Source: Roseibium algicola
Lineage (GTDB): Bacteria; Pseudomonadota; Alphaproteobacteria; Rhizobiales; Stappiaceae
Direction: 5' to 3'
DNA: 64,000 nucleotides
NCBI RefSeq assembly: GCF_001999245.1
Contig: NZ_CP019630.1
Coordinates: 5,299,001-5,363,000, forward strand
In this document: positions 22,865-41,310 of the stretch, piece after piece
Layout of the letters: each line of letters opens with the position of its first letter
How positions within the stretch are numbered: the first letter of the stretch is position 1
Made by a program: the position numbers and the translations under genes
Notes under the pieces: generated by a model
What the model was told of the DNA's origin: nothing
Databases searched by the model: none
Seen by the model: only the letters and a program-made list of their open reading frames with translations

Positions 22865-24154
22865 TCAGGCTCCGGTGCTCCGCTGAAGTTTTGCCATATA
22901 GGTCGGCAGCTTTTCCATCGACGGAACGACGATCAAGGTCTTTACGTGGCCGCGTTTGAATGCGTTCAGGAACTTGTTGTAGTCCTTGAAGGCAACACAG
23001 CCATGGGACCCGATGGAGCGGCGCAGCAGACGCGTATGGGTCAGCATGCCGTCACGGCCTTTCATGGCAGCACGGTCCTGCGGCAGCATGCGAATGGCCT
23101 CCACGCCATGGAAGCGCCGTTCGCGCATTCTCAAGTTGTAGATGTTGGGCGGCGTTGGGCCGAGCATCTTCACGTGCGAAAACTTCGGATTGTCCATCCG
23201 GTGTCCAATGCCGGAATGAGCCTCCAGCTTGGTGCCGTCCGGCATGTGAACGGTCGCGGCGCTGATGTCATAGACGGCGATCTTGCTGCCTGCACCGGGA
23301 AGTCCGGGCTTGGCGCTGCCGAACAATTTGCCGAGACCGCCGAACACTCCGTTTTCGTCTTCTTCGGGATTTCCTGGCGTTGCATAGGCCAGAACGGGAG
23401 ACGCTTGTTCAGGCTTTTCCCTGCCTTCAGAACGGTTTTCTGCAACCACAGGCGCGCTGCGGCGCGGCGGTTCGGGTTTCATGTCCGGGGTCGGCGGCAG
23501 AATAGCGCCGGGTTTGGCCGGATTACCTGCAGCCATGGCAATGTTCACGGCCGTCTGTTCAGGTTTTGCAGCAACATTCGTCTCTGCTTCAGCCGCGGTG
23601 CCGACGCTTTGTAACGCTGCGACTTCGACATTCGGCGCAGTGTCATCGGCTGCCGGTTCATCGAGCGCGGCAACACTTGTGGTTTCTGAAGCAGCTTGAT
23701 GGGCCAGAAGTGTCTGGGCGAGTTTCAGCCTTGCGAGCTTGGCGGCAAGGGCCACCTTCGCAGCCTTTTTAGCCTCAGCCTCGAGTGCCGCCGCTTCCGC
23801 CTTGAGGGCAGCTTCTGCTTTCGCAGCTATTGCTGCTGCCTGTTCAGCGGCTTTTTCCGCTGCAAGAGCGGCTTCCGCTTCGGCGCTTTGCCGTTTTTTC
23901 GTTGTCAGCGCTATCGGGGCCAGACCAAGAGAAGCTGTGGCAGGGGTTGTCTGCGCAAGCGTCAATTTCTCCTGCGGCTCAGTGCCGGCGGCGACAAAAT
24001 GAGACGGGGCGATCGAGGTTCCAAGAAAAGTGGCGGTTCCGGCCAAGCCGGATATCACCAAAGTTGCCCCCGCGAGGATCGTATAAAAAGTCCGGCTGGT
24101 CTTCCGGGATTTTGCTTGCCCCTTCAGGCCGACCTTTTGTTTCTTCTGAATCAT
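22865..24154 (-). CDS. DUF2778 (Tlde1-like) L,D-transpeptidase-fold protein with long alanine-rich linker
   Basis: The 429-residue protein has a basic N-terminus, one TM helix (about residues 23-47), then a long Ala/Glu/Lys-rich stretch (about 85-150) likely to be a helical spacer, a proline-rich region, and a C-terminal domain (about 290-420). That domain contains KIAVYDISAATVHMPDGTKL, SGIGHRMDNP and the catalytic motif SIGSHGCVAFKDY with its cysteine. This pattern is the DUF2778/Tlde1 domain, which in Salmonella Tlde1 is an L,D-transpeptidase/carboxypeptidase acting on peptidoglycan. In Rhizobiales such proteins are common and probably remodel the cell's own wall. The topology puts the enzyme in the periplasm. 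Confidence 0.82.
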   Translation of the reverse strand: MIQKKQKVGLKGQAKSRKTSRTFYTILAGATLVISGLAGTATFLGTSIAPSHFVAAGTEPQEKLTLAQTTPATASLGLAPIALTTKKRQSAEAEAALAAEKAAEQAAAIAAKAEAALKAEAAALEAEAKKAAKVALAAKLARLKLAQTLLAHQAASETTSVAALDEPAADDTAPNVEVAALQSVGTAAEAETNVAAKPEQTAVNIAMAAGNPAKPGAILPPTPDMKPEPPRRSAPVVAENRSEGREKPEQASPVLAYATPGNPEEDENGVFGGLGKLFGSAKPGLPGAGSKIAVYDISAATVHMPDGTKLEAHSGIGHRMDNPKFSHVKMLGPTPPNIYNLRMRERRFHGVEAIRMLPQDRAAMKGRDGMLTHTRLLRRSIGSHGCVAFKDYNKFLNAFKRGHVKTLIVVPSMEKLPTYMAKLQRSTGA

Positions 24155-24549
24155 TCAGACAAAACCACTCTGTTACGCCGGTCTTGTTCGACCGCGCTCC
24201 AAATTCGTATCCTTTGGTGACAATCTTGCCCCAAACGTTCATGCCCACCCGCCTGCGGCAGTATCGTCGATCATGGTAACCAAGTTCTTTACGATAAATA
24301 TGCAAGCGGCCAAGAGACCGGTAATCACTCTAAAGAGGCAATTTTCGGGCGGTTTTTCAAAATTGGCGATATCCAAAGATTGAACGTCAATTTGCCGCAG
24401 ACTGTGGAAGTCTTTGCCTATTGTTGAATTTACCAATCAATGACGTAGATGTCGGCAAAACTTCCAATCCGGCGCAGTGTCAAATGTGCTCTTGACCCCC
24501 GGGGGAAAACCCGGCACATGCGGGCTACTTTCCGTTCGCTTGGCACAGG
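24155..24549. other. AT-richer divergent intergenic region
   Basis: About 395 bases between the divergent starts of the DUF2778 gene and the HAD phosphatase gene, visibly richer in A/T than its surroundings. It should hold both promoters. Short minus-strand frames exist (for example one of 65 codons) but they have no ribosome binding site or recognisable product. A CCCCCGGGGG palindrome sits near 24496. I see no RNA gene. Confidence 0.5.
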
Positions 24550-24555
24550 ATGCCC

Positions 24556-25236
24556 ATGTATCTGATCATCTTCGACGTCGACGGCACGCTGGTGGACAGT
24601 CAGAAAACCATTTTGCAGGGCCTGCAGGTCGGTTTCGAGGCTGCGGGCCTGCCCATGCCTGACCGGGAAACGGCGCTCTCAATCGTCGGACGGTCGCTGG
24701 ACGAGGCTTTTCTGGATCTCGTTGGACCTGAACACCAGGACAAGATCCCGGTGATGTCCAACGCGTATAAACAGGCCAAGTGGTCCCGCAGGAGGGAAGG
24801 GCTGGATCTCGACCCGCTTTATCCGGGTGCTCGCGAGGCTATCATGCGGCTGAATGCGCGTGACGATGTCCTTCTTGGAATTGCCACCGGCAAAGCGATG
24901 CGTGGGGTCAAGCACATGCTGGATACCCATGATCTGCATGGACGCTTCGTGACTGTCCAGACAGCTGATACCTCACCCTCCAAGCCTCATCCGGACATGG
25001 TGCTGCGGGCAATGGCGGAGACCGGAGCGGACAGGACACGAACCATCATGATCGGTGATACCGGTTTTGACATGGCGATGGCCAAGGCCGCCGGCACACA
25101 TGCCTTGGGCGTTGCCTGGGGTTATCATGATCATGACCGGCTGAGTGCTGATGGTGCAGACAAGATCATCCAGACCTATGCCGAGCTGGATTTGGCACTT
25201 GGTGAACTTCTGGATTTCGACAAGGAAACAATCTGA
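24556..25236 (+). CDS. HAD-superfamily hydrolase, phosphoglycolate phosphatase-like
   Basis: A 226-residue HAD subfamily IA phosphatase. Motif I is FDVDGTLVDS (catalytic Asp pair), motif II GIATGK, motif III the Lys in SKPHPDM, and motif IV IGDTGFDMAMA, with a helical cap between motifs I and II. Substrate cannot be set from sequence; phosphoglycolate or a related sugar phosphate is typical. I prefer the ATG at 24556 because AGGA lies 5 bases before it; an ATG two codons upstream overlaps that AGGA. Its stop overlaps the start of the ATP12 gene, a pairing I recall as frequent in Rhizobiales. Confidence 0.9.
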   Translation: MYLIIFDVDGTLVDSQKTILQGLQVGFEAAGLPMPDRETALSIVGRSLDEAFLDLVGPEHQDKIPVMSNAYKQAKWSRRREGLDLDPLYPGAREAIMRLNARDDVLLGIATGKAMRGVKHMLDTHDLHGRFVTVQTADTSPSKPHPDMVLRAMAETGADRTRTIMIGDTGFDMAMAKAAGTHALGVAWGYHDHDRLSADGADKIIQTYAELDLALGELLDFDKETI

Positions 25237-26009
25237 TGCGCGACTTTCTTGAAACCTTGCAGGAAGATGCGGCCAAGGATCCGGAGCAGCGGGCGCGCGA
25301 ACTCTCCCGGCGCGAATTGCCTAAGCGTTTCTACAAGGAAGCAGCCCATGTTGCCGTGGACGGCGGTTTCGCGATCCATCTGGACGGAAGGCCCGTCAAG
25401 ACACCGGGCAAGGCGGCCTTGTTACTGCCGAGTGAGGCGCTTGCTGCAGCGGTTGCCGCCGAATGGCAGGCACAGCAGAAGGAAATCAATCCGGCCACTA
25501 TGCCGCTGACCCGGATTTCCAATTCAGCGCTTGATGCAGTCAGCATCCGGTTTGGCGAAGTGGCTGACGATATCACCCGGTTTGCCGGCAATGATGCGCT
25601 GTGCTACCGCGCGGACGATCCGCAAAGCCTTATCGACACCCAAAGGCGCTTGTGGGATCCTGTCGTGGACTGGGCAGGCGGGTTGCTCGGCGGCCGTTTC
25701 GTGCTGATCGAAGGTGTCATTCACGCTGCCCAGCCGGAAGCGCTGCTTGTCGCCTATCGGGCCCGAGTTTCCGACCTGACCCCGATGCGCCTCGCAGCGC
25801 TCCATACGATCACCAGCCTGACAGGCTCCGCGCTCCTGGGGCTTGGTCTGCTGGAAGACTACCTCGACGCCGATGCCGCCTGGACGGCCGCTCATGTGGA
25901 AGAGGACTTCAACATCGAGCGCTGGGGTGAAGACGCGGAAGCTGCTCTCGTCCGGGCCTACAAGCGCAAGGAATTCGACGCGGCGGTTCTGATCTTGCGT
26001 GAAGCGTAA
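25236..26009 (+). CDS. ATP12-family F1-ATPase assembly chaperone
   Basis: ATP12 binds the F1 alpha subunit and assists its assembly with beta in mitochondria and alphaproteobacteria. The 257-residue product has the conserved RFYKEAAHVAVDGGFAIHLDGRPVKTPGK, an AAEWQAQ-x-EINPATMPLTR segment, and the C-terminal domain with GALALLHTITSLTGSALL-like sequence (LAALHTITSLTGSALLGLGL). These are family-typical. It is translationally coupled to the upstream HAD gene by a one-base overlap and converges with mgtE after 36 bases. Confidence 0.93.
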   Translation: MRDFLETLQEDAAKDPEQRARELSRRELPKRFYKEAAHVAVDGGFAIHLDGRPVKTPGKAALLLPSEALAAAVAAEWQAQQKEINPATMPLTRISNSALDAVSIRFGEVADDITRFAGNDALCYRADDPQSLIDTQRRLWDPVVDWAGGLLGGRFVLIEGVIHAAQPEALLVAYRARVSDLTPMRLAALHTITSLTGSALLGLGLLEDYLDADAAWTAAHVEEDFNIERWGEDAEAALVRAYKRKEFDAAVLILREA

Positions 26010-26045
26010 CAATTTCCCTGCGATGTGGTGTGGAGCGTATTGGCT

Positions 26046-27470
26046 TCACCCCAAGTAGAACGTCGTTGCCATCAGAAAGAAAATGAGCACGCCGAGGACG
26101 TCGTTGGACGAGGTGATGAAGACACCGATGGCCATGGCCGGGTCGATGCCGATCTTGTCCAGAATGATTGGTATGGTAGCGCCGACCATGGCCGCGAGCG
26201 TGGTGACGCACAGCAGTGACAGCGATGTGGCCAGGGCAAGGTGCAGCGGGTCTTCCAGCGGCACGATCAGCGAAGCCACGAGCACGAGACAGCCCAGGAT
26301 CGTGCCGGCGATAGCGCCATTGAAGAGCGCCGCCACCAGTTCCTTCAGCAGGCGGTAGAAGATATCGCCGGACCACAAGGCTCCGGTCGCAATGCCTTGT
26401 ACCGCCACAGCGGAGGCCTGCAGGCCCGCGTTTCCGGCCATCGACATGGTGACGGGAATGAAAGCGGCCAGGATGGCGGCTTCCGCCAACTGGTCTTCAT
26501 AGGAACCGACCACCGTTGCAGCAACGCTGGCCCCCACCAGACCGGCGAGCAGCCAGGGCAGGCGGCCGCGTACTATACGCAGCACCGTGTCATCCGACCG
26601 GGCTTCTGAGGAAACGCCGCTCATCAGCAGCATGTCTTCGTTGGCTTCGTCCGAGGCGATGCGTGTCAACTGCTTGGGCGTGATCCTGCCGATCAGGTGG
26701 CCTTCTCCGCTGACGACCGGCACGGTGCGCATGTCGCGTTTTCGGGCGAGCCGCAGCACTTCTTCCTGGTCAGTGTCCGTGGACACGGCAATGACGTCGC
26801 GGTTCATGAAGCTGGACAAGGGGGCGTCCGCCGGCGCGAGCAGAAGCTTGCCGACTTCCACCGTTCCGGTCAGCTTGCTGTCGGCATCGGTCACATAAAC
26901 GGTAAAGACCTTGCGAATGCGGCTGGCTTCCGCGCGCATCTGCGCGACAGCTTCGCCGGCGGTGCAGGTTTCGGGAAGGGCGACGAACTTGCGGGCCATC
27001 ACGCGGCCCGCCGTGTCGTCGGCATAGGAACCGCGCGTTGCGATGTCTTCCACATCCGGCAAGCGCGCGATCAGTTCGTCCGCGACATCGTCCGGAAACT
27101 CGTTGAGAATTTCGATGGCGTCTTCCGGATCGAGACCGGCGAGAATATCCCGAAACTGCTCAAGGGTGGATTCTTCCATCAGAATCGAACGGAATTCCGG
27201 TCGAAGCTCGGCAATGACCTTGATCGACGGGTTGGCCGGCAACCACTGGAACAATTTGCGGGCTTGTTTCAGGCGCAGCCGCGTCAACAATTGCATGACG
27301 TCGACGGGGTCCCAGCGCTTGAGCAGTTCGACCAGCTGCGTGCGCTGACCCGACTTGATCATCTCGCGCACGGCCCTGAGCGCAGCATCATTGATTTCCA
27401 GCGGTTCGTTAGCCGGCTCTCTGGTCCATGCGGTTGGATCAAGCTCGGCGACGTCGCTGGAATTGCTCAT
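26046..27470 (-). CDS. mgtE: Magnesium transporter MgtE, copy 1
   Basis: MgtE is a Mg2+-gated Mg2+ channel of the inner membrane. The 474-residue product has an N-terminal superhelical MgtE_N domain (about residues 30-140, with EILNEFPDDVADELIARL), two CBS domains (about 145-265), a plug helix and five TM helices from about residue 310. The pore region reads MAGNAGLQASAVAVQGIATG where family members usually have MGGNxGTQ. The final helix keeps the Asp of SSNDVLG at the position of the selectivity-site Asp. A second, more canonical mgtE lies in this window. It is transcribed toward ATP12. Confidence 0.93.
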   Translation of the reverse strand: MSNSSDVAELDPTAWTREPANEPLEINDAALRAVREMIKSGQRTQLVELLKRWDPVDVMQLLTRLRLKQARKLFQWLPANPSIKVIAELRPEFRSILMEESTLEQFRDILAGLDPEDAIEILNEFPDDVADELIARLPDVEDIATRGSYADDTAGRVMARKFVALPETCTAGEAVAQMRAEASRIRKVFTVYVTDADSKLTGTVEVGKLLLAPADAPLSSFMNRDVIAVSTDTDQEEVLRLARKRDMRTVPVVSGEGHLIGRITPKQLTRIASDEANEDMLLMSGVSSEARSDDTVLRIVRGRLPWLLAGLVGASVAATVVGSYEDQLAEAAILAAFIPVTMSMAGNAGLQASAVAVQGIATGALWSGDIFYRLLKELVAALFNGAIAGTILGCLVLVASLIVPLEDPLHLALATSLSLLCVTTLAAMVGATIPIILDKIGIDPAMAIGVFITSSNDVLGVLIFFLMATTFYLG

Positions 27471-27547
27471 GGATACTCACTTTCCGGAAGGGTCCGGTCC
27501 GCTTCTACTGATCGATTGTGACGTCCGCCTGACAGTTTCCTGCGGGA

Positions 27548-28279
27548 TCAGACCTCAAATTCCTCAATATCGGCAAAGGCCTGCCGCAGCTTGTCTGACC
27601 AGCCCCGGGACAGTTTCTGGAAATACGGGTCGTCCTGCTGAATGCGCACCTGGCGGTCGGTGGAAAAGCTGTCGGTGTTGTAGAGCAACATGTCGATGGG
27701 CATGCCGACAGACAGGTTCGACCTCAGCGTGCTGTCAAAGGACAGCAGCACCAGCTTGGCCGCTTCACCGAGGCGCATGTCCGCACGCGTGACCCGGTCC
27801 AGGATCGGCTTGCCGTATTTGTGCTCGCCGATCTGCAGATAGGGCGTGTCTTCACAGACCTCGATGAAGTTGCCGGCCGCATAGATCTGGAACATGCGCG
27901 GTTCCTCACCCTTGATCTGGCCGCCCAGAATGAAGGTGACGAAGAAGTTTTCCGCACTTGTTGCAAGGGCTTCGCCGTCGATCGCCTTGACCTCACGAAC
28001 CGCACTGCCGACGAGGCGGGCAACCTGGAACATGGTTTTTGCGGTCATCAGCGTCGCCCGGTCGCTTTCCGCGGACGTGATGTGCTCACTCAAAAGCGAT
28101 ACGACGGCCTGGGTGACGGCAAGGTTGCCGGCAGAGAGCAGGGTGATCACCCGCTCGCCTGGCTCCTCCCATACGTGGAGTTTCTTGAAGGTGGCAATGT
28201 TGTCGACACCGGCGTTGGTGCGTGTGTCCGCGGCGAACACCAGCCCGCGATCCAGTTTCAAGCCAACGCAATAGGTCAT
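27548..28279 (-). CDS. Anbu (ancestral beta subunit) proteasome-like peptidase
   Basis: Anbu is a bacterial self-compartmentalised NTN-hydrolase related to HslV and the 20S proteasome; its substrate is unknown. The 243-residue product begins MTYCVGLKLDRGLVFAADTR. Removal of the Met would expose Thr1, with Asp17 (AADTR) and Lys31/32 (ATFKK) in the proteasome-type active site. A longer in-frame start 19 codons upstream would bury this threonine, so the ATG at 28279 is preferred. The family-typical LLSAGNLAVTQAV and LLSFDSTLRSNLSVGMPIDML are present. It is the last gene of a four-gene minus-strand cluster, the known Anbu neighbourhood. Confidence 0.93.
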   Translation of the reverse strand: MTYCVGLKLDRGLVFAADTRTNAGVDNIATFKKLHVWEEPGERVITLLSAGNLAVTQAVVSLLSEHITSAESDRATLMTAKTMFQVARLVGSAVREVKAIDGEALATSAENFFVTFILGGQIKGEEPRMFQIYAAGNFIEVCEDTPYLQIGEHKYGKPILDRVTRADMRLGEAAKLVLLSFDSTLRSNLSVGMPIDMLLYNTDSFSTDRQVRIQQDDPYFQKLSRGWSDKLRQAFADIEEFEV

Positions 28280-28411
28280 TCCCAAGCCCTCAGACTGCGC
28301 CAAGACCCGTTGCTGGAGCCCCCAAAGGGCAAGCATCCATCAGGCAGGGCGCAGGTTGCCCTTTAATATCTTTTGTTGGAGTGAGCCTGTTCGGGCGGTT
28401 TGAAAGGACAC

Positions 28412-29230
28412 TTACTGCTGTTGCTGGAACGCGGCCTGGGCCACATCGACCTCAACATGCAGGTTTTCCTCACGCCCGCCAAAACGGATCCCCCTGATAG
28501 GGGCAGCTGAACGGGAATCCAGGCCCACCGTCAAGCGGATATAGCGATCGGTCGGACACATTGCGTTGGATATGTCGAATCCGGTCCAGCCAAGACCGTT
28601 TATCATCACTTCGGCCCAGGCATGATGGGCTTCCGAAGCCTGTTCGTCTTCCAGCAGCAGATAGCCAGAAACGTACCTTGCCGGAACGCCGATGGAACGT
28701 GCGGCCGCGATGAAAATATGCGCGTGATCCTGGCAGACGCCTTCTCCGGCGGCCAGCACGGCAGTGGCCGGAGCGTGCGTTTCGGTGACGCCCACCTTGT
28801 AGTCGACCTTGTCGCGGATGGCATGCATCAGAGCATGGAAACCGGCAATCTTGTCATGTCCCTCCGCGTTGGCCGCCAATCTGCGGATCGCCTGGTTGGA
28901 TTGCGTAAGCGGAGTAACCCTTGTGTAGATCCGCGGTGGGATGCCGGCATCCGGTTCGTGGCCGAGAATTCCGTTGGTATCCGTCGTCTCGACAATACCG
29001 CTGGCGGTGATCTCGACGTCCTCGATCGGCTCGCTGCGCGACACCATGTGAACCTGGTTGCCGAAAGCGTCCTTGTAGGTCGTCGCCCGTTCAATGCCCG
29101 GTGCTTCGATTGACCATTCGACAACTCTCTGGCTCGGGCCATCCTCGGGCGTCAGGCGCAACTGCTGCATGGCGTTGGCGAGTGGCGTCTCGTAACGGTA
29201 TCGGGTCGTGTGTCTGACAGTCAGTCGCAT
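28412..29230 (-). CDS. Transglutaminase-like cysteine protease-fold protein (Anbu cluster)
   Basis: A 272-residue protein with the bacterial transglutaminase-like N-terminal beta domain (LTVRHTTRYRYETPLANAMQ) and the catalytic core: Cys in GEGVCQDHAHIF, His in SEAHHAWAEV and Asp in GWTGFDISNAM. All three triad residues are present. Proteins of this type are thought to act as peptidases or amidases on isopeptide or peptide bonds. The start is the ATG at 29230; sequence further upstream in this frame is antisense to other coding. No signal peptide is seen, so it is cytoplasmic. It lies between the alpha-E and Anbu genes. Confidence 0.92.
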   Translation of the reverse strand: MRLTVRHTTRYRYETPLANAMQQLRLTPEDGPSQRVVEWSIEAPGIERATTYKDAFGNQVHMVSRSEPIEDVEITASGIVETTDTNGILGHEPDAGIPPRIYTRVTPLTQSNQAIRRLAANAEGHDKIAGFHALMHAIRDKVDYKVGVTETHAPATAVLAAGEGVCQDHAHIFIAAARSIGVPARYVSGYLLLEDEQASEAHHAWAEVMINGLGWTGFDISNAMCPTDRYIRLTVGLDSRSAAPIRGIRFGGREENLHVEVDVAQAAFQQQQ

Positions 29231-29258
29231 GCTGCACCGGTTCTGCGGGGTTCCAGGG

Positions 29259-30209
29259 TCAGGCGAAATTGTAGTCTTCGCAAAGCTGATGGGCGAAAAG
29301 ATTGTTTTTGTTGATGAAATCCGAGAGGAAATCATGCAGTCCCTGCTGATAGATTTCGTGCATCTGCTTTTCAGCCAGGTCTTTTGCCATGTCCGCTGCC
29401 ATGTCCAGGCTTGGTTCGCGCGAACCATAGAACTGGGCCAGGTCTTCCGCGGTATCGGCCATCCAGTCGTAGCAATGGGCAAGGGACCGGGGCATTTCCG
29501 TTCTGAGGATCAGAAACTCGGCAATGTTGAACGCTTTCAGTCGGGCATTCGGATACGCAAACCGGTAGCTTCTCCGCCCGGACAGGGCACGCAGGATCGC
29601 GGACCACTGATAGTGCTCCAGAGAGCCGTCATCGATGATGTCGCTGTCCGGCAGCAGGGTCCAGTAGTACGTGTCGAGGATGCGGGCCGTGTTGTCCGAC
29701 CGTTCCACGAAATTGCCCATCTGGCTGAAGAAATAGCCGTCGTCGCGCAGGATCGTGTTCAGCAGCGCGCCCCGGAACAGGTGCGCACGCTGATTAACCC
29801 AGGCAAGAAAGTCCGGCAGTTTTTCCTGGGTGATGGATTGCGGGTTCACGTCGGTAAACTCGATCCATGTGGTGTTGATGGCTTCCCAGAGTTCAGCCGT
29901 GATGCCTGTTCGAACGGCACGGGCGTTGTTCCTGGCAAGTTCCAGGCAGCTGCGGACGCTTGAGGTGTTTTCCTTGGAAAAGATCATGTGGGCCGCCACG
30001 TTGCGGCCGTTCAGTTCCTCGTATTTCTGCTTGTACCCGGTCTCGCACCCCGAGCAGGCGAGGGCGAAGGTCCAGTGGGTTCCGTCCTCCTGACCCGAAT
30101 GGGAGATGATGGCGCCACGACAGGCGACCTCAAGGAGACGGGAAACATTCTGGGCACGCTCATGGTAGCGCGACATCCAAAACAGCGAAGAGGCGGTTCT
30201 TCCGAGCAT
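29259..30209 (-). CDS. Alpha-E domain protein (DUF403)
   Basis: A 316-residue all-helical protein starting LGRTASSLFWMSRYHERAQN, the hallmark N-terminus of the alpha-E (DUF403) family, with ARNNARAVRTGITAELWEAIN and the long C-terminal helical region (ILRTEMPRSLAHCYDWM). Alpha-E proteins always travel with circularly permuted ATP-grasp enzymes and are proposed to act with them in peptide or amide bond formation. No catalytic residues are defined for the family. It starts 9 bases after the stop of the ATP-grasp gene and ends 28 bases before the transglutaminase-like gene. Confidence 0.92.
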   Translation of the reverse strand: MLGRTASSLFWMSRYHERAQNVSRLLEVACRGAIISHSGQEDGTHWTFALACSGCETGYKQKYEELNGRNVAAHMIFSKENTSSVRSCLELARNNARAVRTGITAELWEAINTTWIEFTDVNPQSITQEKLPDFLAWVNQRAHLFRGALLNTILRDDGYFFSQMGNFVERSDNTARILDTYYWTLLPDSDIIDDGSLEHYQWSAILRALSGRRSYRFAYPNARLKAFNIAEFLILRTEMPRSLAHCYDWMADTAEDLAQFYGSREPSLDMAADMAKDLAEKQMHEIYQQGLHDFLSDFINKNNLFAHQLCEDYNFA

Positions 30210-30218
30210 CTGGTTCTC

Positions 30219-31643
30219 TCAGTCCTCAAGTACCCAGGTGTCTTTTGTGCCGCCACCCTGGCTGGAGTTGACGACGAGCGAGCCTTTCTTGAGGGCAACC
30301 CGTGTCAGGCCACCTGGCGTGATGCGGACCTGATCACCGATCAGCACGTAGGGGCGCAGATCGACGTGGCGCGGGGCGACACCCGAAGCGACATGCGTCG
30401 GGCAGGCCGACAGCGCCAGGGTCGGCTGGGCAATATAGTTGGAAGGGTTGGTTTCCAGGACTTTCCGGAATTCCGCGATTTCCCGCTTCGATGCGGTCGG
30501 ACCGATCAGCATGCCGTAGCCGCCCGAACCGTGGACCTCCTTGACGACAATGTCCTCAAGATTATCCAGAACATAGGCGAGGTCATCCGGCCGTGAGCAG
30601 TTCCACGTCGGAACGTTGTTCAGGATCGGTTTCTGGCCCGTGTAGAACTCGATGATGTCCGGGACATAGGCATAGATCGCCTTATCGTCGGCAATACCCG
30701 TTCCCGGCGCATTGCAGATGGTGACGTTGCCGGCGCGATAGGCATCGAAGAGGCCCGGCACTCCGAGCATGCTGCCCGGATTGAAGGTCAGCGGATCGAG
30801 GAAGGCATCGTCGATACGCCGGTAGATGACGTCGACCTGCTTCGGTTCGCGCGTTGTGCGCATGTAGACATGTCCGGCATCCACGAACAGATCCCGGCCT
30901 TCCACCAGTTCCACGCCCATGGAATCAGCCAGGAAAGCGTGTTCGAAATAGGCGGAGTTATAGATGCCCGGGGTCAGGACAACGATCGTCTGCGAAGACT
31001 TCGAGGGATCCGGTGCAACGCTTTCCAGCGTCTGCAGGAGGTTCTCGGGATATTGCTCCACCGCGGCGACCCGGTGACTCTGAAAAAGCTCGGGGAAGAG
31101 ACGCATCATCGTCTCCCGGTTCTCCATCATGTAGGAGACACCTGAAGGCGTGCGCGTGTTGTCCTCCAGCACGTAGAATTCGTTTTCCGACACGCGGACC
31201 AGATCGGTTCCGATGATGTGGGCATAGACCTTGCGGGCAGGGGTGAACCCGGCCATTTCAGGCAGGAATGCCTCGTTCTGCAGCACGAGCTCCGCCGGGA
31301 TCCTGCCTGCGCGCAGGATTTCCTGGCGATGGTAGATGTCGTGCAGGAAGGCGTTCAGAGCCCGCACACGCTGGTCGATGCCGGCAGACAGGCGCCGCCA
31401 CTCCGGAGCCGAGATGATGCGCGGGATGGGATCAAACGGGATCAGCCGTTCGGTAGCTTCTTCCGCTCCATAAACCGCGAAGGTGATGCCAAGTCTGCGG
31501 AAAATGGTTTCAGCGTCGCGGCCCTTCTTGGTCAGAAAGTTGGCTGGTTTGTCTTCCAGCCATTTGGCGAGCCGGGCGTATGGCTGGCGCGGCTTGTTGG
31601 CCTCGTCGAGCATTTCATTGAAGAAAGTGCGTTCGTCCGCCAT
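30219..31643 (-). CDS. Circularly permuted type 2 ATP-grasp protein
   Basis: ATP-grasp ligases join a carboxylate to an amine through an acyl-phosphate; the permuted type 2 group (DUF404/DUF407) accompanies alpha-E proteins and has no defined product. The 474-residue protein contains VYAHIIGTDLVRVSENEFYVLEDNTRTPSGVSYM in pieces, the VVLTPGIYNSAYFEHAFLA segment, APGTGIADDKAIYAYVP and the nucleotide-binding IVVKEVHGSGGYGMLIGP. The ATG at 31643 is chosen because a strong AGGGGAGG ribosome binding site sits before it. It is the first gene of the minus-strand Anbu cluster. Confidence 0.93.
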   Translation of the reverse strand: MADERTFFNEMLDEANKPRQPYARLAKWLEDKPANFLTKKGRDAETIFRRLGITFAVYGAEEATERLIPFDPIPRIISAPEWRRLSAGIDQRVRALNAFLHDIYHRQEILRAGRIPAELVLQNEAFLPEMAGFTPARKVYAHIIGTDLVRVSENEFYVLEDNTRTPSGVSYMMENRETMMRLFPELFQSHRVAAVEQYPENLLQTLESVAPDPSKSSQTIVVLTPGIYNSAYFEHAFLADSMGVELVEGRDLFVDAGHVYMRTTREPKQVDVIYRRIDDAFLDPLTFNPGSMLGVPGLFDAYRAGNVTICNAPGTGIADDKAIYAYVPDIIEFYTGQKPILNNVPTWNCSRPDDLAYVLDNLEDIVVKEVHGSGGYGMLIGPTASKREIAEFRKVLETNPSNYIAQPTLALSACPTHVASGVAPRHVDLRPYVLIGDQVRITPGGLTRVALKKGSLVVNSSQGGGTKDTWVLED

Positions 31644-32111
31644 TGCCTCCCCTTTGCCGATGCTTCGTTCTTGGGCAATCATGGCAAAATTCTGAAAGGT
31701 GTCAAAGTTCAATGTCGCGGCGACAGTGCCTGCAAATTAGGCAACGAGCTGAAATTCATCGAAAAATCCTGAGGTTCCCTCAGGTTGAATATATTTTTTT
31801 CGACCACTGAAAAAGGATTTGAAGGCGGTGTTTTTCGCCGCTTGCGCGTGCAAACTTCGCCAAAATGACGGGCTCAAATGAACGTTACGGCATCCTTGCT
31901 GCCAGGCTTGGCCGGGAAAGACGAGGGGCCGGATCGGGGGCGTCTGCTGCCCGTCAAAACATGCCAGACCGGAGTGGTAACATCTGCTTGTTCGGTCAGG
32001 CAGAAGTTGTGTTCAATCCAATATGCACAGTCGATGGGCAGGTCGGGCAGCATGATCGAAATCTGATTTGCTGCCCGGTGCGTGTGCGGATAGGTGGCCG
32101 GAGACAGGGTG
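31644..32111. other. Leader/intergenic region upstream of the Anbu cluster
   Basis: About 470 bases separate the OmpA-like gene (which ends here) from the ATP-grasp start, both on the minus strand. The region is A/T-rich near 31785-31830 and contains one clear hairpin. Plus-strand frames of up to 121 codons are present, but with no ribosome binding site and no family I recognise, so I call none. The promoter of the ATP-grasp operon should lie here. Confidence 0.5.
31768..31784 (-). terminator. Hairpin, possible terminator of the OmpA-like transcript
   Basis: A perfect 7-bp stem, CCTGAGG then CCTCAGG, with a three-base loop. On the minus strand it is followed by ATTTTTCG, on the plus strand by a T-rich tract. 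It lies about 330 bases beyond the OmpA-like stop and 125 bases before the ATP-grasp start, so it could end the upstream transcript or sit in the operon leader. Confidence 0.5.
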
Positions 32112-33062
32112 CTAGCGCATCAGTGTCCTGCCGACCGAGATCACCGAGACGTCGCCGTATTTGCGCCCGGTCCAAACGTGGAGGCCTGCACCGACGCCAA
32201 GCATCGGAATTGTGTAGAGACCTTTCTTGACGAACCCCTTGTTCTTGGTGAGTTCGATCGCGGCATGGCTCAGTTCCTCGTATTTCTCCATCGTATTGAC
32301 GATCTTGCCGATGCCCTTGATGCCTTTGAGGACGTCCCCCAGCTTTCCGGCAATCGCCAGGTCGAGGTCCCAATCAGACCATTCGCCCTTCTTGTTGAAC
32401 TCGCTGGGCGTCTTGACACCATGCGCCACGATGACGATGCCACCGACACTACCCCCCAGGCCGCCGCCGATTTTCCAGCCGTCTGCCATAAGGTCAACGT
32501 AGTCGACATAGCCGTTGTCATCGGCGCTGGCCCGGTAAAGGCGTCCATTCCAGTTGTACCGCCCGACAGCAACAAGGTCGCCTGAATGGCTTTCACCGAT
32601 GCCGACCCACAAGGTGGAAGCCGCCTTTGGCTTGGGCTTCATCTTTTTCGGGGTTTTGATGACCTTCGGATTGGGTGGCGTCGGCAGAGAATGCACGTAA
32701 ATCATCACGGCACGGAACTGTCCATCTTCAACGCCGTCTTCCTGACCCATTTCTTCAGCCAGGGATTCGCCAAGTCCGTCGACCAGATCGAACGGAAAGC
32801 AGGACAGTAGGCATTCTTCCAGGAACGTCTTCACGGCATTAGCCCGCTTCATCGACAGGGCCTTGTTGAAAGCTGCCTTGCCGCTGCGGCTGGAAAGTCC
32901 GACGATACTGATACTGCCGTTGCCTTTCAGCAGCGGAACGACGTTTCTGCGAAGCCAGTTCTTGTGATCTTCCTTGAGGTTCGCCTGGCTGACGTCGAAA
33001 TATTGCAGGCGCGCGAGCGTGATGACACCGTCACGATGATCAACAACATAATTTCCTGACAT
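32112..33062 (-). CDS. OmpA-like domain protein with unknown C-terminal domain
   Basis: The 316-residue product begins with an OmpA/MotB-like domain (about residues 15-125): SISIVGLSSRSGKAAFN and KALSMKRANAVKTFLEE match the peptidoglycan-binding core, though the usual NxxLSxxRA spacing is slightly altered. A lysine/proline-rich linker (about 130-150, KTPKKMKPKPKA) leads to a 165-residue glycine-rich C-terminal region that I do not recognise (ESHSGDLVAVGRYNWNGRLY). There is no signal peptide, which is odd for a domain that normally acts in the periplasm. Two cysteines lie close together (LSCFPF and CLLS). It lies upstream of the Anbu operon on the same strand, but 470 bases away. Confidence 0.7.
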   Translation of the reverse strand: MSGNYVVDHRDGVITLARLQYFDVSQANLKEDHKNWLRRNVVPLLKGNGSISIVGLSSRSGKAAFNKALSMKRANAVKTFLEECLLSCFPFDLVDGLGESLAEEMGQEDGVEDGQFRAVMIYVHSLPTPPNPKVIKTPKKMKPKPKAASTLWVGIGESHSGDLVAVGRYNWNGRLYRASADDNGYVDYVDLMADGWKIGGGLGGSVGGIVIVAHGVKTPSEFNKKGEWSDWDLDLAIAGKLGDVLKGIKGIGKIVNTMEKYEELSHAAIELTKNKGFVKKGLYTIPMLGVGAGLHVWTGRKYGDVSVISVGRTLMR

Positions 33063-33370
33063 TAATGTACTCCGTTAAGAATGGGTCCTGGACCTGAAAT
33101 GAGATTTCTCGAGTTTGAAAATCGTGCTTCGAAAAATGGCACGTATTGAAGTGATCCTGGTCTGTCCCGGCGCGCGGAAACGCAAGGGCAGTTTTGGGAT
33201 CGGGCAAAGCGTGGCCATAAAGGCTTTTGCCTGACATTCGTCCAGCTTCTGTGGGCGTTTGGCAGGAAAGGTTCATAGGGCGTAGTTTCCCCATAAGCCC
33301 ATGTGCTGACTAGGCTCTGTCGGGGGATCATGCTACGGCGTGATCCAAGCTCAAGTTTTGGGAGGACCGG
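33063..33370. other. Divergent intergenic region upstream of pccB
   Basis: About 308 bases between the divergent starts of the OmpA-like gene and pccB. Promoters for both are expected. I see no hairpin terminator, RNA gene or convincing small reading frame. A GGGAGG ribosome binding site at the right end serves pccB. Confidence 0.5.
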
Positions 33371-34903
33371 ATGAAAGAAGTTCTGGCCGAATTGGAACAA
33401 CGCCGCGAAACCGCGCGGCTGGGCGGCGGGCAACGCCGCATCAATGCGCAGCATGCCAAGGGCAAACTGACTGCGCGTGAACGTATTGAAATTCTTCTGG
33501 ACGAAGGGTCCTTCGAAGAATTCGACATGTTCAAACAGCACCGCTGTACCGATTTCGGCATGGAAGAGCAGCATATCCCCGGCGACGGCGTGATCACCGG
33601 CTGGGGAACGGTCAACGGTCGGACCGTTTACGTGTTCTCCAAGGATTTCACGGTCTTCGGCGGGTCTCTTTCCGAAACGCATGCGGAAAAGATCACCAAG
33701 CTTCAGGACATGGCCCTGCAGAACCGGGCACCGATCATCGGTCTGTTCGACGCAGGTGGCGCCCGCATTCAGGAAGGTGTCGCGGCCCTTGGCGGTTACG
33801 GCGAAGTGTTCCAGCGCAACGTTCTGGCATCCGGTGTCATTCCGCAGATTTCGCTCATCATGGGTCCTTGTGCCGGCGGCGACGTCTATTCCCCTGCCAT
33901 GACGGACTTCATCTTCATGGTGCGTGACACGTCGTACATGTTCGTCACCGGACCGGACGTGGTGAAGACCGTGACGAACGAGACGGTGACGGCCGAGGAA
34001 CTGGGCGGCGCGTCGATCCACACCACCAAGTCTTCGATTGCGGACGGTGCCTTCGATAACGACGTCGAAGCCCTGCAGGAAATGCGCCGGCTGATCGACT
34101 ATCTGCCGATGAACAATCGTGCGGACCTGCCGGAGTTGACGAACTACGACGACCCGGAGCGGATCGACACCAGCCTCGACACGCTCATTCCGGACAACCC
34201 GAACAAGCCCTACGACATGAAGGAACTTGTTCTGAAGACAGTCGACGAGGGAGACTTCTTCGAAATTCAGGGCAGTTTCGCGGGCAACATCATTACCGGT
34301 TTCGGACGGATCGAGGGTCGCACTGTCGGCATCGTTGCCAACCAGCCGATGGTTCTGGCCGGCGTGCTGGATTCCGACGCCAGCCGCAAGGCAGCAAGGT
34401 TTGTCCGCTTCTGTGACTGTTTCAGCATTCCGATCGTGACCTTCGTTGATGTTCCAGGCTTCCTGCCCGGCACGTCGCAGGAATATGGCGGCCTGATCAA
34501 ACACGGCGCCAAGCTGCTGTTTGCCTACGCGGAAGCTACGGTGCCGAAGATCACCGTCATCACCCGCAAGGCCTACGGCGGTGCTTATGACGTGATGAGC
34601 TCCAAGCACATCCGCGGCGACATCAACTACGCCTGGCCGTCTGCTGAAATCGCGGTGATGGGCGCAAAAGGGGCGGTCGAAATCCTCTACAGATCCGAAC
34701 TCGGCGACAAGGAGAAGATCGCCAAGCGGACGAAGGATTACGAAGACCGTTTCGCCAATCCGTTCGTCGCTGCGGAGCGCGGCTACATAGACGATGTCAT
34801 TCGTCCGCATTCCACCCGCCGGCGTGTGTCCAAGGCTCTGGCCCTGCTCAGGTCCAAGCAGGCGGATATGCCGTGGAAAAAGCACGACAATATTCCGCTC
34901 TAG
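33371..34903 (+). CDS. pccB: Propionyl-CoA carboxylase beta (carboxyltransferase) subunit
   Basis: PccB transfers the carboxyl group from biotin to propionyl-CoA, giving methylmalonyl-CoA. The 510-residue product has the crotonase-like N- and C-terminal carboxyltransferase domains. Features include [21 protein letters not shown], the oxyanion glycine pairs in [20 protein letters not shown] and the C-terminal [18 protein letters not shown], typical of PccB. Length matches the family. The biotin-carrying subunit gene pccA lies 1.9 kb downstream on the same strand, with three opposite-strand genes between. Ribosome binding site GGGAGG. Confidence 0.95.
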
Positions 34904-40972: not shown

Positions 40973-41051
40973 TGTGCCGTTGACGTGCCTTTCGGCATGC
41001 TTCCACTATTGCATCCTGTCTATTTCAGGGATACTGAAAGCTCTTGGAGAG

Positions 41052-41220
<169 letters not shown>

Positions 41221-41310
41221 TGACCGCCGCCAGTTGTTGATAGGCCGGTGGGCGTGTGTCTTTTGAGACTGTTCTGAACGATGACGGAACGGATCGCAGA
41301 TAGGACGCCC

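Follow-up and report, generated by a model that had tools for sequence, protein, structure and literature searches.

A complete four-gene Anbu operon in Roseibium algicola and the association of Anbu with a widespread ATP-grasp/alpha-E pair

A stretch of 64,000 nucleotides from Roseibium algicola (RefSeq assembly GCF_001999245.1, contig NZ_CP019630.1, positions 5,299,001 to 5,363,000 of the forward strand; hereafter the window) carries a four-gene operon that ends with the gene for Anbu, a Thr-type N-terminal nucleophile (Ntn) hydrolase. All four genes lie on the minus strand. The first encodes a circularly permuted ATP-grasp protein of 474 amino acids (CP-ATP-grasp, family CP_ATPgrasp_2; 30219..31643), which matches PF14403 with 566 bits and PDB entry 3n6x with 657 bits. 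It is followed by an alpha-E protein of 316 amino acids (29259..30209; PF04168, 269 bits) and by a transglutaminase-like protein of 272 amino acids (28412..29230) that has both the Transglut_core (PF01841, 82 bits) and the Bact_transglu_N domain (PF08379, 81 bits). Anbu itself, 243 amino acids long including the start Met (27548..28279), is of the Anbu-1 type and matches PF00227 with 37 bits (cut-off 22.4) and, over its full length, PDB entry 5nyj with 358 bits. The gaps between successive genes measure 9, 28 and 132 bp. Start positions were set by homology, and the program-made open reading frames begin further upstream for three of the four genes; the Pfam queries extended one residue (Anbu) and 12 residues (transglutaminase-like) upstream of the start, and the PDB query for Anbu one residue. 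The CP-ATP-grasp start, an ATG at 31643, is backed by GGGGAGGCAATG, which the window and nine other Roseibium loci share in slightly varying form, and is accompanied by a conserved GGGGAGGC. A match to alpha-E is present in 18 of 18 same-genus genomes searched and in the window’s own genome.

The operon was compared with relatives in two samples. At least 598 stretches matched, 593 were confirmed, and the best-scoring 80 of the 593 were read (the named loci); residue counts refer to called proteins of fitting length within these 80. A second sample, 200 Pseudomonadota genomes, served as one set for searches with Anbu, alpha-E, CP-ATP-grasp, Bact_transglu_N and PF15887. Genes were called by a codon-score program, which did not cover genes below 60 amino acids, overlooked one metallopeptidase gene (in L100) and mis-set 13 of 75 Anbu starts; these starts were settled by direct codon reading. 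Read in this way, the Anbu gene has a Thr codon immediately after the start codon, followed by Tyr, in 80 of 80 named loci, although neither residue was part of the patterns used to find them. The window protein likewise starts MTY and has no propeptide. All 75 called Anbu proteins have Asp17, Thr20, Lys32, Gly50 and Leu52, and Asp17, Lys32 and Gly50 are also found in the window. The S1 pocket of the window’s Anbu (Thr20, Phe30, Ser48, Leu52 and Thr55) is of the Anbu-1 type with conservative changes at positions 48 and 55, Anbu-1 of P. aeruginosa having T20, F30, T48, L52 and S55, and Anbu-2 I20 and A29 (PMC5666114). An Anbu-2-like protein (Ile20 and Ala29 by eye) is encoded in one alphaproteobacterium (G046; L090, 6170-6934), about 370 kb from the alpha-E gene.

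The other three proteins also have conserved key residues. Cys166, His203 and Asp219 of the transglutaminase-like protein are invariant (50/50). CP-ATP-grasp keeps Asp147, Glu160 and Asn162 in 63 of 63 proteins, Lys368 in 62 of 63, and the GGYG loop (374-377) in 62 or 63 of 63. Alpha-E has six invariant charged residues (Arg93, Arg100, Glu169, Asp172, Arg176 and Arg241; 64/64) as well as Glu17-Arg18, kept in the 62 proteins with residues at that position, and from this pattern of conservation we infer that they may form a ligand-binding or catalytic site. The alpha-E model is all-helical and of high confidence (pLDDT 92.3, pTM 0.91); a sequence search of the PDB gave a best E of 0.76, which is at chance level, and a Foldseek search with the model gave no match at E ≤ 0.001. 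The earlier note on this DNA, made from the sequence alone, had placed the four genes here in this order and strand and described Thr1 and Asp17 of Anbu, the Cys-His-Asp triad and the ATP-grasp glycine loop as intact; the reading frames and Pfam matches bear out the former, and the residues are kept across relatives. Lys32 of Anbu, and a related second system in this genome (described below), are additions to that note. The cluster is a complete, intact copy of an already described four-gene set, and an ordinary member of it.

Of the 200 genomes, 69 have Anbu, 112 have alpha-E, 116 have CP-ATP-grasp (113 over the cut-off) and 110 have Bact_transglu_N (109 over the cut-off). Every one of the 112 alpha-E genomes has CP-ATP-grasp, and the four CP-ATP-grasp matches in genomes lacking alpha-E are weak (E 2e-4 to 1e-7). 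Alpha-E and CP-ATP-grasp accompany Anbu in 68 of its 69 genomes (Fisher p 6e-22 for Anbu against alpha-E, kinship ignored). All four families occur together in 64 genomes, and the other three without Anbu in 44. In 60 of 69 genomes an alpha-E match is found no more than 15 kb from Anbu; of the nine in which Anbu is unlinked, eight keep alpha-E and CP-ATP-grasp elsewhere. Anbu therefore depends on the CP-ATP-grasp/alpha-E pair, linkage not being needed, whereas the pair can do without Anbu. CP-ATP-grasp is hardly ever found apart from alpha-E, and the two, which are also fused in the second system described below, form the core, around which the hydrolases are accessory and vary.

The 80 named loci fall into several layouts. 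Sixty have the window’s full order on one strand; five have CP-ATP-grasp, alpha-E and Anbu without a transglutaminase-like gene; nine have Anbu alone; three are divergent without a detected transglutaminase-like gene and one is divergent with it; and two are cut by a contig end. Eight of the nine genomes with Anbu alone have alpha-E, and of the 17 genomes behind the nine, the five and the three divergent loci, 16 have alpha-E and 15 Bact_transglu_N. In eight loci where Anbu lies far from alpha-E or occurs without it, mutS and an alpha/beta-hydrolase-like gene flank Anbu in three (L085, L086 and L088; mutS was named by eye, the hydrolase-like gene by Pfam for L085 only), and by eye no common partner was seen in the rest. 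Conversely, nine three-gene loci (eight from the 44 Anbu-less genomes, L091-L098, and L034, found separately) showed by eye no recurring gene in place of Anbu, L093 being cut by a contig end. A loss of co-occurrence, set beforehand as a refuting result, was looked for and did not occur. The statement that these genes travel together holds as co-occurrence but not as one obligate unit, given the genomes lacking Anbu, the five loci lacking the transglutaminase-like gene and the unlinked copies of Anbu.

This one-way dependence bears on what Anbu does. Anbu could be a small self-assembling protease for general turnover in nitrogen starvation, with the other three genes marking, activating or feeding it. 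The proteasome-like active site and the Anbu-1 S1 pocket fit such a role, as does the binding of epoxomicin and MG132 by Thr1 of the P. aeruginosa protein, whose authors think protein degradation likelier than peptide synthesis (PMC5666114); up-regulation of Anbu under nitrogen limitation is also cited (PMC5666114, PMC6376114). Thr1, Asp17 and Lys32-33 are shared with the Ntn-hydrolase subunits of HslV/HslU and the 20S proteasome (PMC6376114), and Anbu is a proposed precursor of the proteasome family (PMC5666114). In contrast to HslV/HslU and the 20S proteasome, no AAA+ protein was found among the ten window proteins scanned (22868-34900), the other loci not having been scanned for one individually, and no fifth family recurs across lineages. 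Together with the near-constant company of the ligase pair, even when unlinked, and the lack of activity on the substrates tested in the available parts of PMC5666114 and PMC6376114, this makes a general protease unlikely in our view. The window’s genome has a second PF00227 gene elsewhere.

A third type of hydrolase recurs around the same pair. In L099 (genome G216), a zinc metallopeptidase of the HExxH type (Peptidase_Mx, PF15887, 302 bits) follows alpha-E in the slot usually occupied by the transglutaminase-like gene, with Anbu convergent to it, and the Bact_transglu_N match of this genome is weak (E 5e-5). PF15887 is found in 28 of the 200 genomes, 27 of which have alpha-E against a base rate of 112/200. 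Judged by its coordinates, the gene adjoins CP-ATP-grasp, alpha-E, Anbu or genes of the type-2 system (described below) in nine of the 28 genomes, spread over six of 14 families, and the HExxH motif is kept in all 16 places read (those nine and seven others, chosen partly by coordinates). Alpha-E genomes without Bact_transglu_N have PF15887 in three of four cases, compared with 24 of 108 for the others (p 0.04, small numbers). The family is absent from the window’s genome, and the genes called in the 80 named loci yielded no relative. Because PF15887 recurs beside these systems, and once in the transglutaminase slot, the pattern tips the reading of the transglutaminase-like protein towards a hydrolase.

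The transglutaminase-like protein might instead be a true cross-linker that puts the ligase product on protein glutamines, Anbu then removing the tag or degrading the tagged proteins. Tagging was reportedly proposed by Iyer in 2009. The proposal also appears as a citation in PMC6376114, and the Cys-His-Asp triad is intact. True transglutaminases are among the structural matches of the model (pLDDT 91.9), at far lower TM-scores than the best match, the putative cysteine protease 3isr (TM 0.79). With a metallopeptidase in its slot in L099, and with CP-ATP-grasp, alpha-E and Anbu adjacent in five loci that lack it altogether, such a tagging system appears very improbable.

We next considered regulation, scoring a sigma-54 consensus in the 160 bp upstream of CP-ATP-grasp. 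Motifs of at least 10 bits were found in 22 of 65 operon leaders. For the other transcription units of these loci the count is 17 of 607 leaders, and in mononucleotide shuffles of the 65 leaders, a mean of 1.3 reach the threshold. The 22 sites, 42-86 bp ahead of the start, come from 18, 15 and 12 clusters of CP-ATP-grasp proteins at 90, 80 and 75 % identity, respectively. A related Burkholderia cenocepacia cluster is NtrC-dependent in its expression and lies within the NtrC regulon (PMC5491218), and one published table gives a sigma-54 site for a CP_ATPgrasp_1 gene of Bradyrhizobium (PMC13207237). Because of this promoter motif, the operon is probably under nitrogen control in many relatives. 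In nine Mesorhizobium-type loci (L114-L116, L119, L121, L127-L129 and L151), an Lrp/AsnC gene lies 157-313 bp upstream of CP-ATP-grasp; the protein of L151 is a free-standing Lrp/AsnC ligand-binding domain of 78 amino acids (PF01037). A sigma-54 site precedes the AsnC-type gene in two of the nine (L127 and L151), both of which are counted among the 17 controls.

The Roseibium operon seems to be controlled by another route. Sigma-54/NtrC control was tried as a candidate for this genus and rejected: the window holds 6 sites against a shuffle mean of 13.5 in one count and 27 against 37.8 in the other, with no good site upstream of the operon. The upstream alignment (11 rows: the window and nine other Roseibium loci, L047 and L103 belonging to one genome) shows instead a dyad, TTGCCTAATTTGCAGGCA, at 31727..31744 on the minus strand, 84-101 bp upstream of the start, which is common to Roseibium with some variation and may be a regulator site. 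The Anbu of L103, a R. limicola record, matches that of the window at 80 %. Between the dyad and the start, a possible sigma-70-like promoter (TTGACA, 16 bp, CATGAT; 31678..31705, minus strand) was picked out by eye in the alignment, a TTGACA-like element being common to the window and its nine relatives. The dyad pattern TGC-N11-GCA has three exact sites in the genome, the operon’s included, and 113 sites with at most one mismatch, compared with 72 for the backward control; of the other two exact sites, one is close to an amino-acid ABC transporter (L217) and one to an outer-membrane-like protein gene (L218), both named by eye, and no dyad regulon emerged from this search of the window’s own genome.

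The immediate surroundings of the operon were read for further components. In the named loci, the three successive gaps have medians and 95th percentiles of 19 and 140 bp (n 61), 10 and 142 bp (n 53), and 37.5 and 280 bp (n 54). The commonest extra families within 10 kb occur in 23 (ATP-binding cassette, or ABC, ATPases), 14, 14 and 13 of the 80 loci; those other than ABC ATPases fall mostly in one Mesorhizobium-like group (L113-L151) and look like local synteny. No fifth gene of at least 60 amino acids recurs across lineages among the 80 loci. Because the gaps are mostly short and a recurring fifth gene is lacking, no precursor peptide was found in cis, smaller genes and genes elsewhere in the genome lying outside the search. 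ATP-grasp enzymes are frequent makers of peptide-like compounds, and a ligase accompanied by several peptidase types could make and mature a small peptide-like natural product that the hydrolases trim. Most gaps, however, are too short for a precursor gene, the extra neighbour families are mostly concentrated in one group, and the distribution of alpha-E is in our judgement wider than that of most natural-product clusters. We regard this reading as quite unlikely.

A second, type-2 system in the same genome (L033, contig C1, about 3713300-3719900) consists of a transglutaminase-like protein, a fused CP-ATP-grasp/alpha-E protein of 801 amino acids and a transglutaminase/DUF2126 protein of 1068 amino acids. 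It shares the ligase pair and the Bact_transglu_N protein with the window operon, at 25-30 % identity where tblastn matched, but differs in the fusion of the pair, in the added DUF2126 domain (in Pfam, a putative amidoligase) and in that no Anbu was found at the locus. Compared with the Anbu operons described from Yersinia, Pseudomonas and Hyphomicrobium (PMC6376114, PMC5666114; structures 5nyj, 5nyf, 5loy, 5nyw and 5lox), the window operon is alike in Anbu residues, absence of a propeptide, S1 pocket and gene order. No essential difference was found, the region upstream in the window having the Roseibium dyad in place of a sigma-54 motif.

In bifunctional glutathionylspermidine synthetase/amidase, an ATP-grasp synthetase makes an amide that a partner amidase cleaves. 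By analogy (2io7), the operon would follow the same logic of an ATP-grasp amide ligase plus a Cys hydrolase. The D-x(12)-E-x-N motif of CP-ATP-grasp aligns with the same motif of GSP_synth, in an hhalign comparison that is not significant (probability 0.2 %), and a PDB profile search returned no chain of the glutathionylspermidine-synthetase family at E ≤ 10. The window’s operon differs in having separate proteins and in the extra alpha-E and Anbu, and the amidase domain of the glutathionylspermidine enzyme differs from the transglutaminase-like type.

Gene content, intact active sites, one-way dependence, the recurrence of a third hydrolase and sigma-54 enrichment are direct observations, from which we infer the following chemistry. 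CP-ATP-grasp, judged by fold and motif, would activate a carboxylate with ATP, and alpha-E, as its obligate partner, would supply the second-substrate site or act as co-catalyst, so that the carboxylate is joined to an amine. The transglutaminase-like Cys protein and Anbu might each cleave that amide or trim the product, and in many relatives the operon would be expressed from its sigma-54-type promoter under nitrogen control. That Anbu depends on the pair, and that hydrolases exchange around this same pair, makes one product class the most likely common target and suggests that all three hydrolase types, Cys, Thr and Zn, attack the bond made by the ligase. Such an amide-bond cycle, in which the product of an ATP-grasp/alpha-E ligase is split by exchangeable Cys, Thr or Zn hydrolases, is the explanation we prefer, tentatively and at somewhat less than an even chance. 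The earlier prediction of a system that builds and trims an amide-linked peptide or tag is accordingly supported in its combination of a ligase with hydrolases, but a tag is not shown, given the short gaps and the lack of a fifth gene. A broader form, in which a widespread two-component amide ligase with an exchangeable slot for a Cys, Thr or Zn hydrolase runs an amide store or a cycle of conjugates that responds to nitrogen, with Anbu as a dedicated hydrolase rather than a general protease, is more doubtful.

Several observations weigh against the amide-bond cycle. In the available parts of the Yersinia study, the ATP-grasp protein released phosphate with no ligase product found, and Anbu showed no specific interaction with the other operon proteins (PMC6376114); the inactivity of Anbu on protein and peptide substrates noted above, and the non-significant comparison with the glutathionylspermidine-synthetase family, count here as well. 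Two genomes have Anbu without alpha-E, namely G124, which is listed as 100 % complete and has a GSP_synth gene, and a metagenome-assembled genome (MAG; L180). The genomes are kin by descent and the 80 loci are the best scorers, so that p-values and counts overstate independence. With regard to nitrogen control, motifs of at least 10 bits also occur on the opposite strand of 7 of the 65 leaders, none was found upstream of the operon in the window or nine Roseibium relatives, Anbu genes without a CP-ATP-grasp gene called in the locus have a site in one of 11 cases, and scores in 300-bp windows show a weak overall shift relative to all genes (p 0.017). The authors of the P. aeruginosa study consider peptide synthesis less likely (PMC5666114). 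We find the idea worth keeping because of the one-way dependence of Anbu on the ligase pair.

Should Anbu act solely on what the ATP-grasp/alpha-E pair makes, its substrate would be better sought in that amide than among proteins. The census implies an order of work, first the product of the pair and then the Cys, Thr or Zn hydrolase that opens it, and the sigma-54 motifs point to nitrogen limitation as the growth condition and to relatives other than Roseibium. Within the literature searched, which was examined in part, we recognised no earlier report of dependence without linkage, of the metallopeptidase partner or of the recurrent sigma-54 motifs, and these comparative results sharpen the question posed by a known cluster.

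Other genes adjoin the operon or its relatives. A gene for an MgtE magnesium transporter (26046-27470), also on the minus strand, is located downstream of Anbu at a distance of about 77 bp and adjoins Anbu in nine of nine Roseibium relatives read. The families that recur in the 80 loci do not include it, and L100 has a distant MgtE-like gene downstream of its alpha-E gene. The gene for an OmpA-type domain protein that stands directly upstream of the operon (32112-33062, minus strand) occurs at this locus in only two of the nine Roseibium relatives (L041 and L045) and is a recent gain or loss. Beside CP-ATP-grasp and alpha-E, three loci carry a family of about 417 amino acids (L130:6016-7266, L144:6117-7367 and L260:8309-9559), behind alpha-E in two of them, which had no Pfam match (L130 and L144) and no NCBIfam match (L130) and by eye looks like a VOC-type dioxygenase. 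In a single case, a Minwuia MAG, a ThiF/MoeB-type E1-like gene (PF00899; L145:3766-4518) overlaps the end of Anbu. Elsewhere in the window are a gene for a protein with a C-terminal Tlde1 domain (22868-24154, minus strand) and a flavin mononucleotide (FMN) riboswitch (41050-41223, plus strand; 102 bits).

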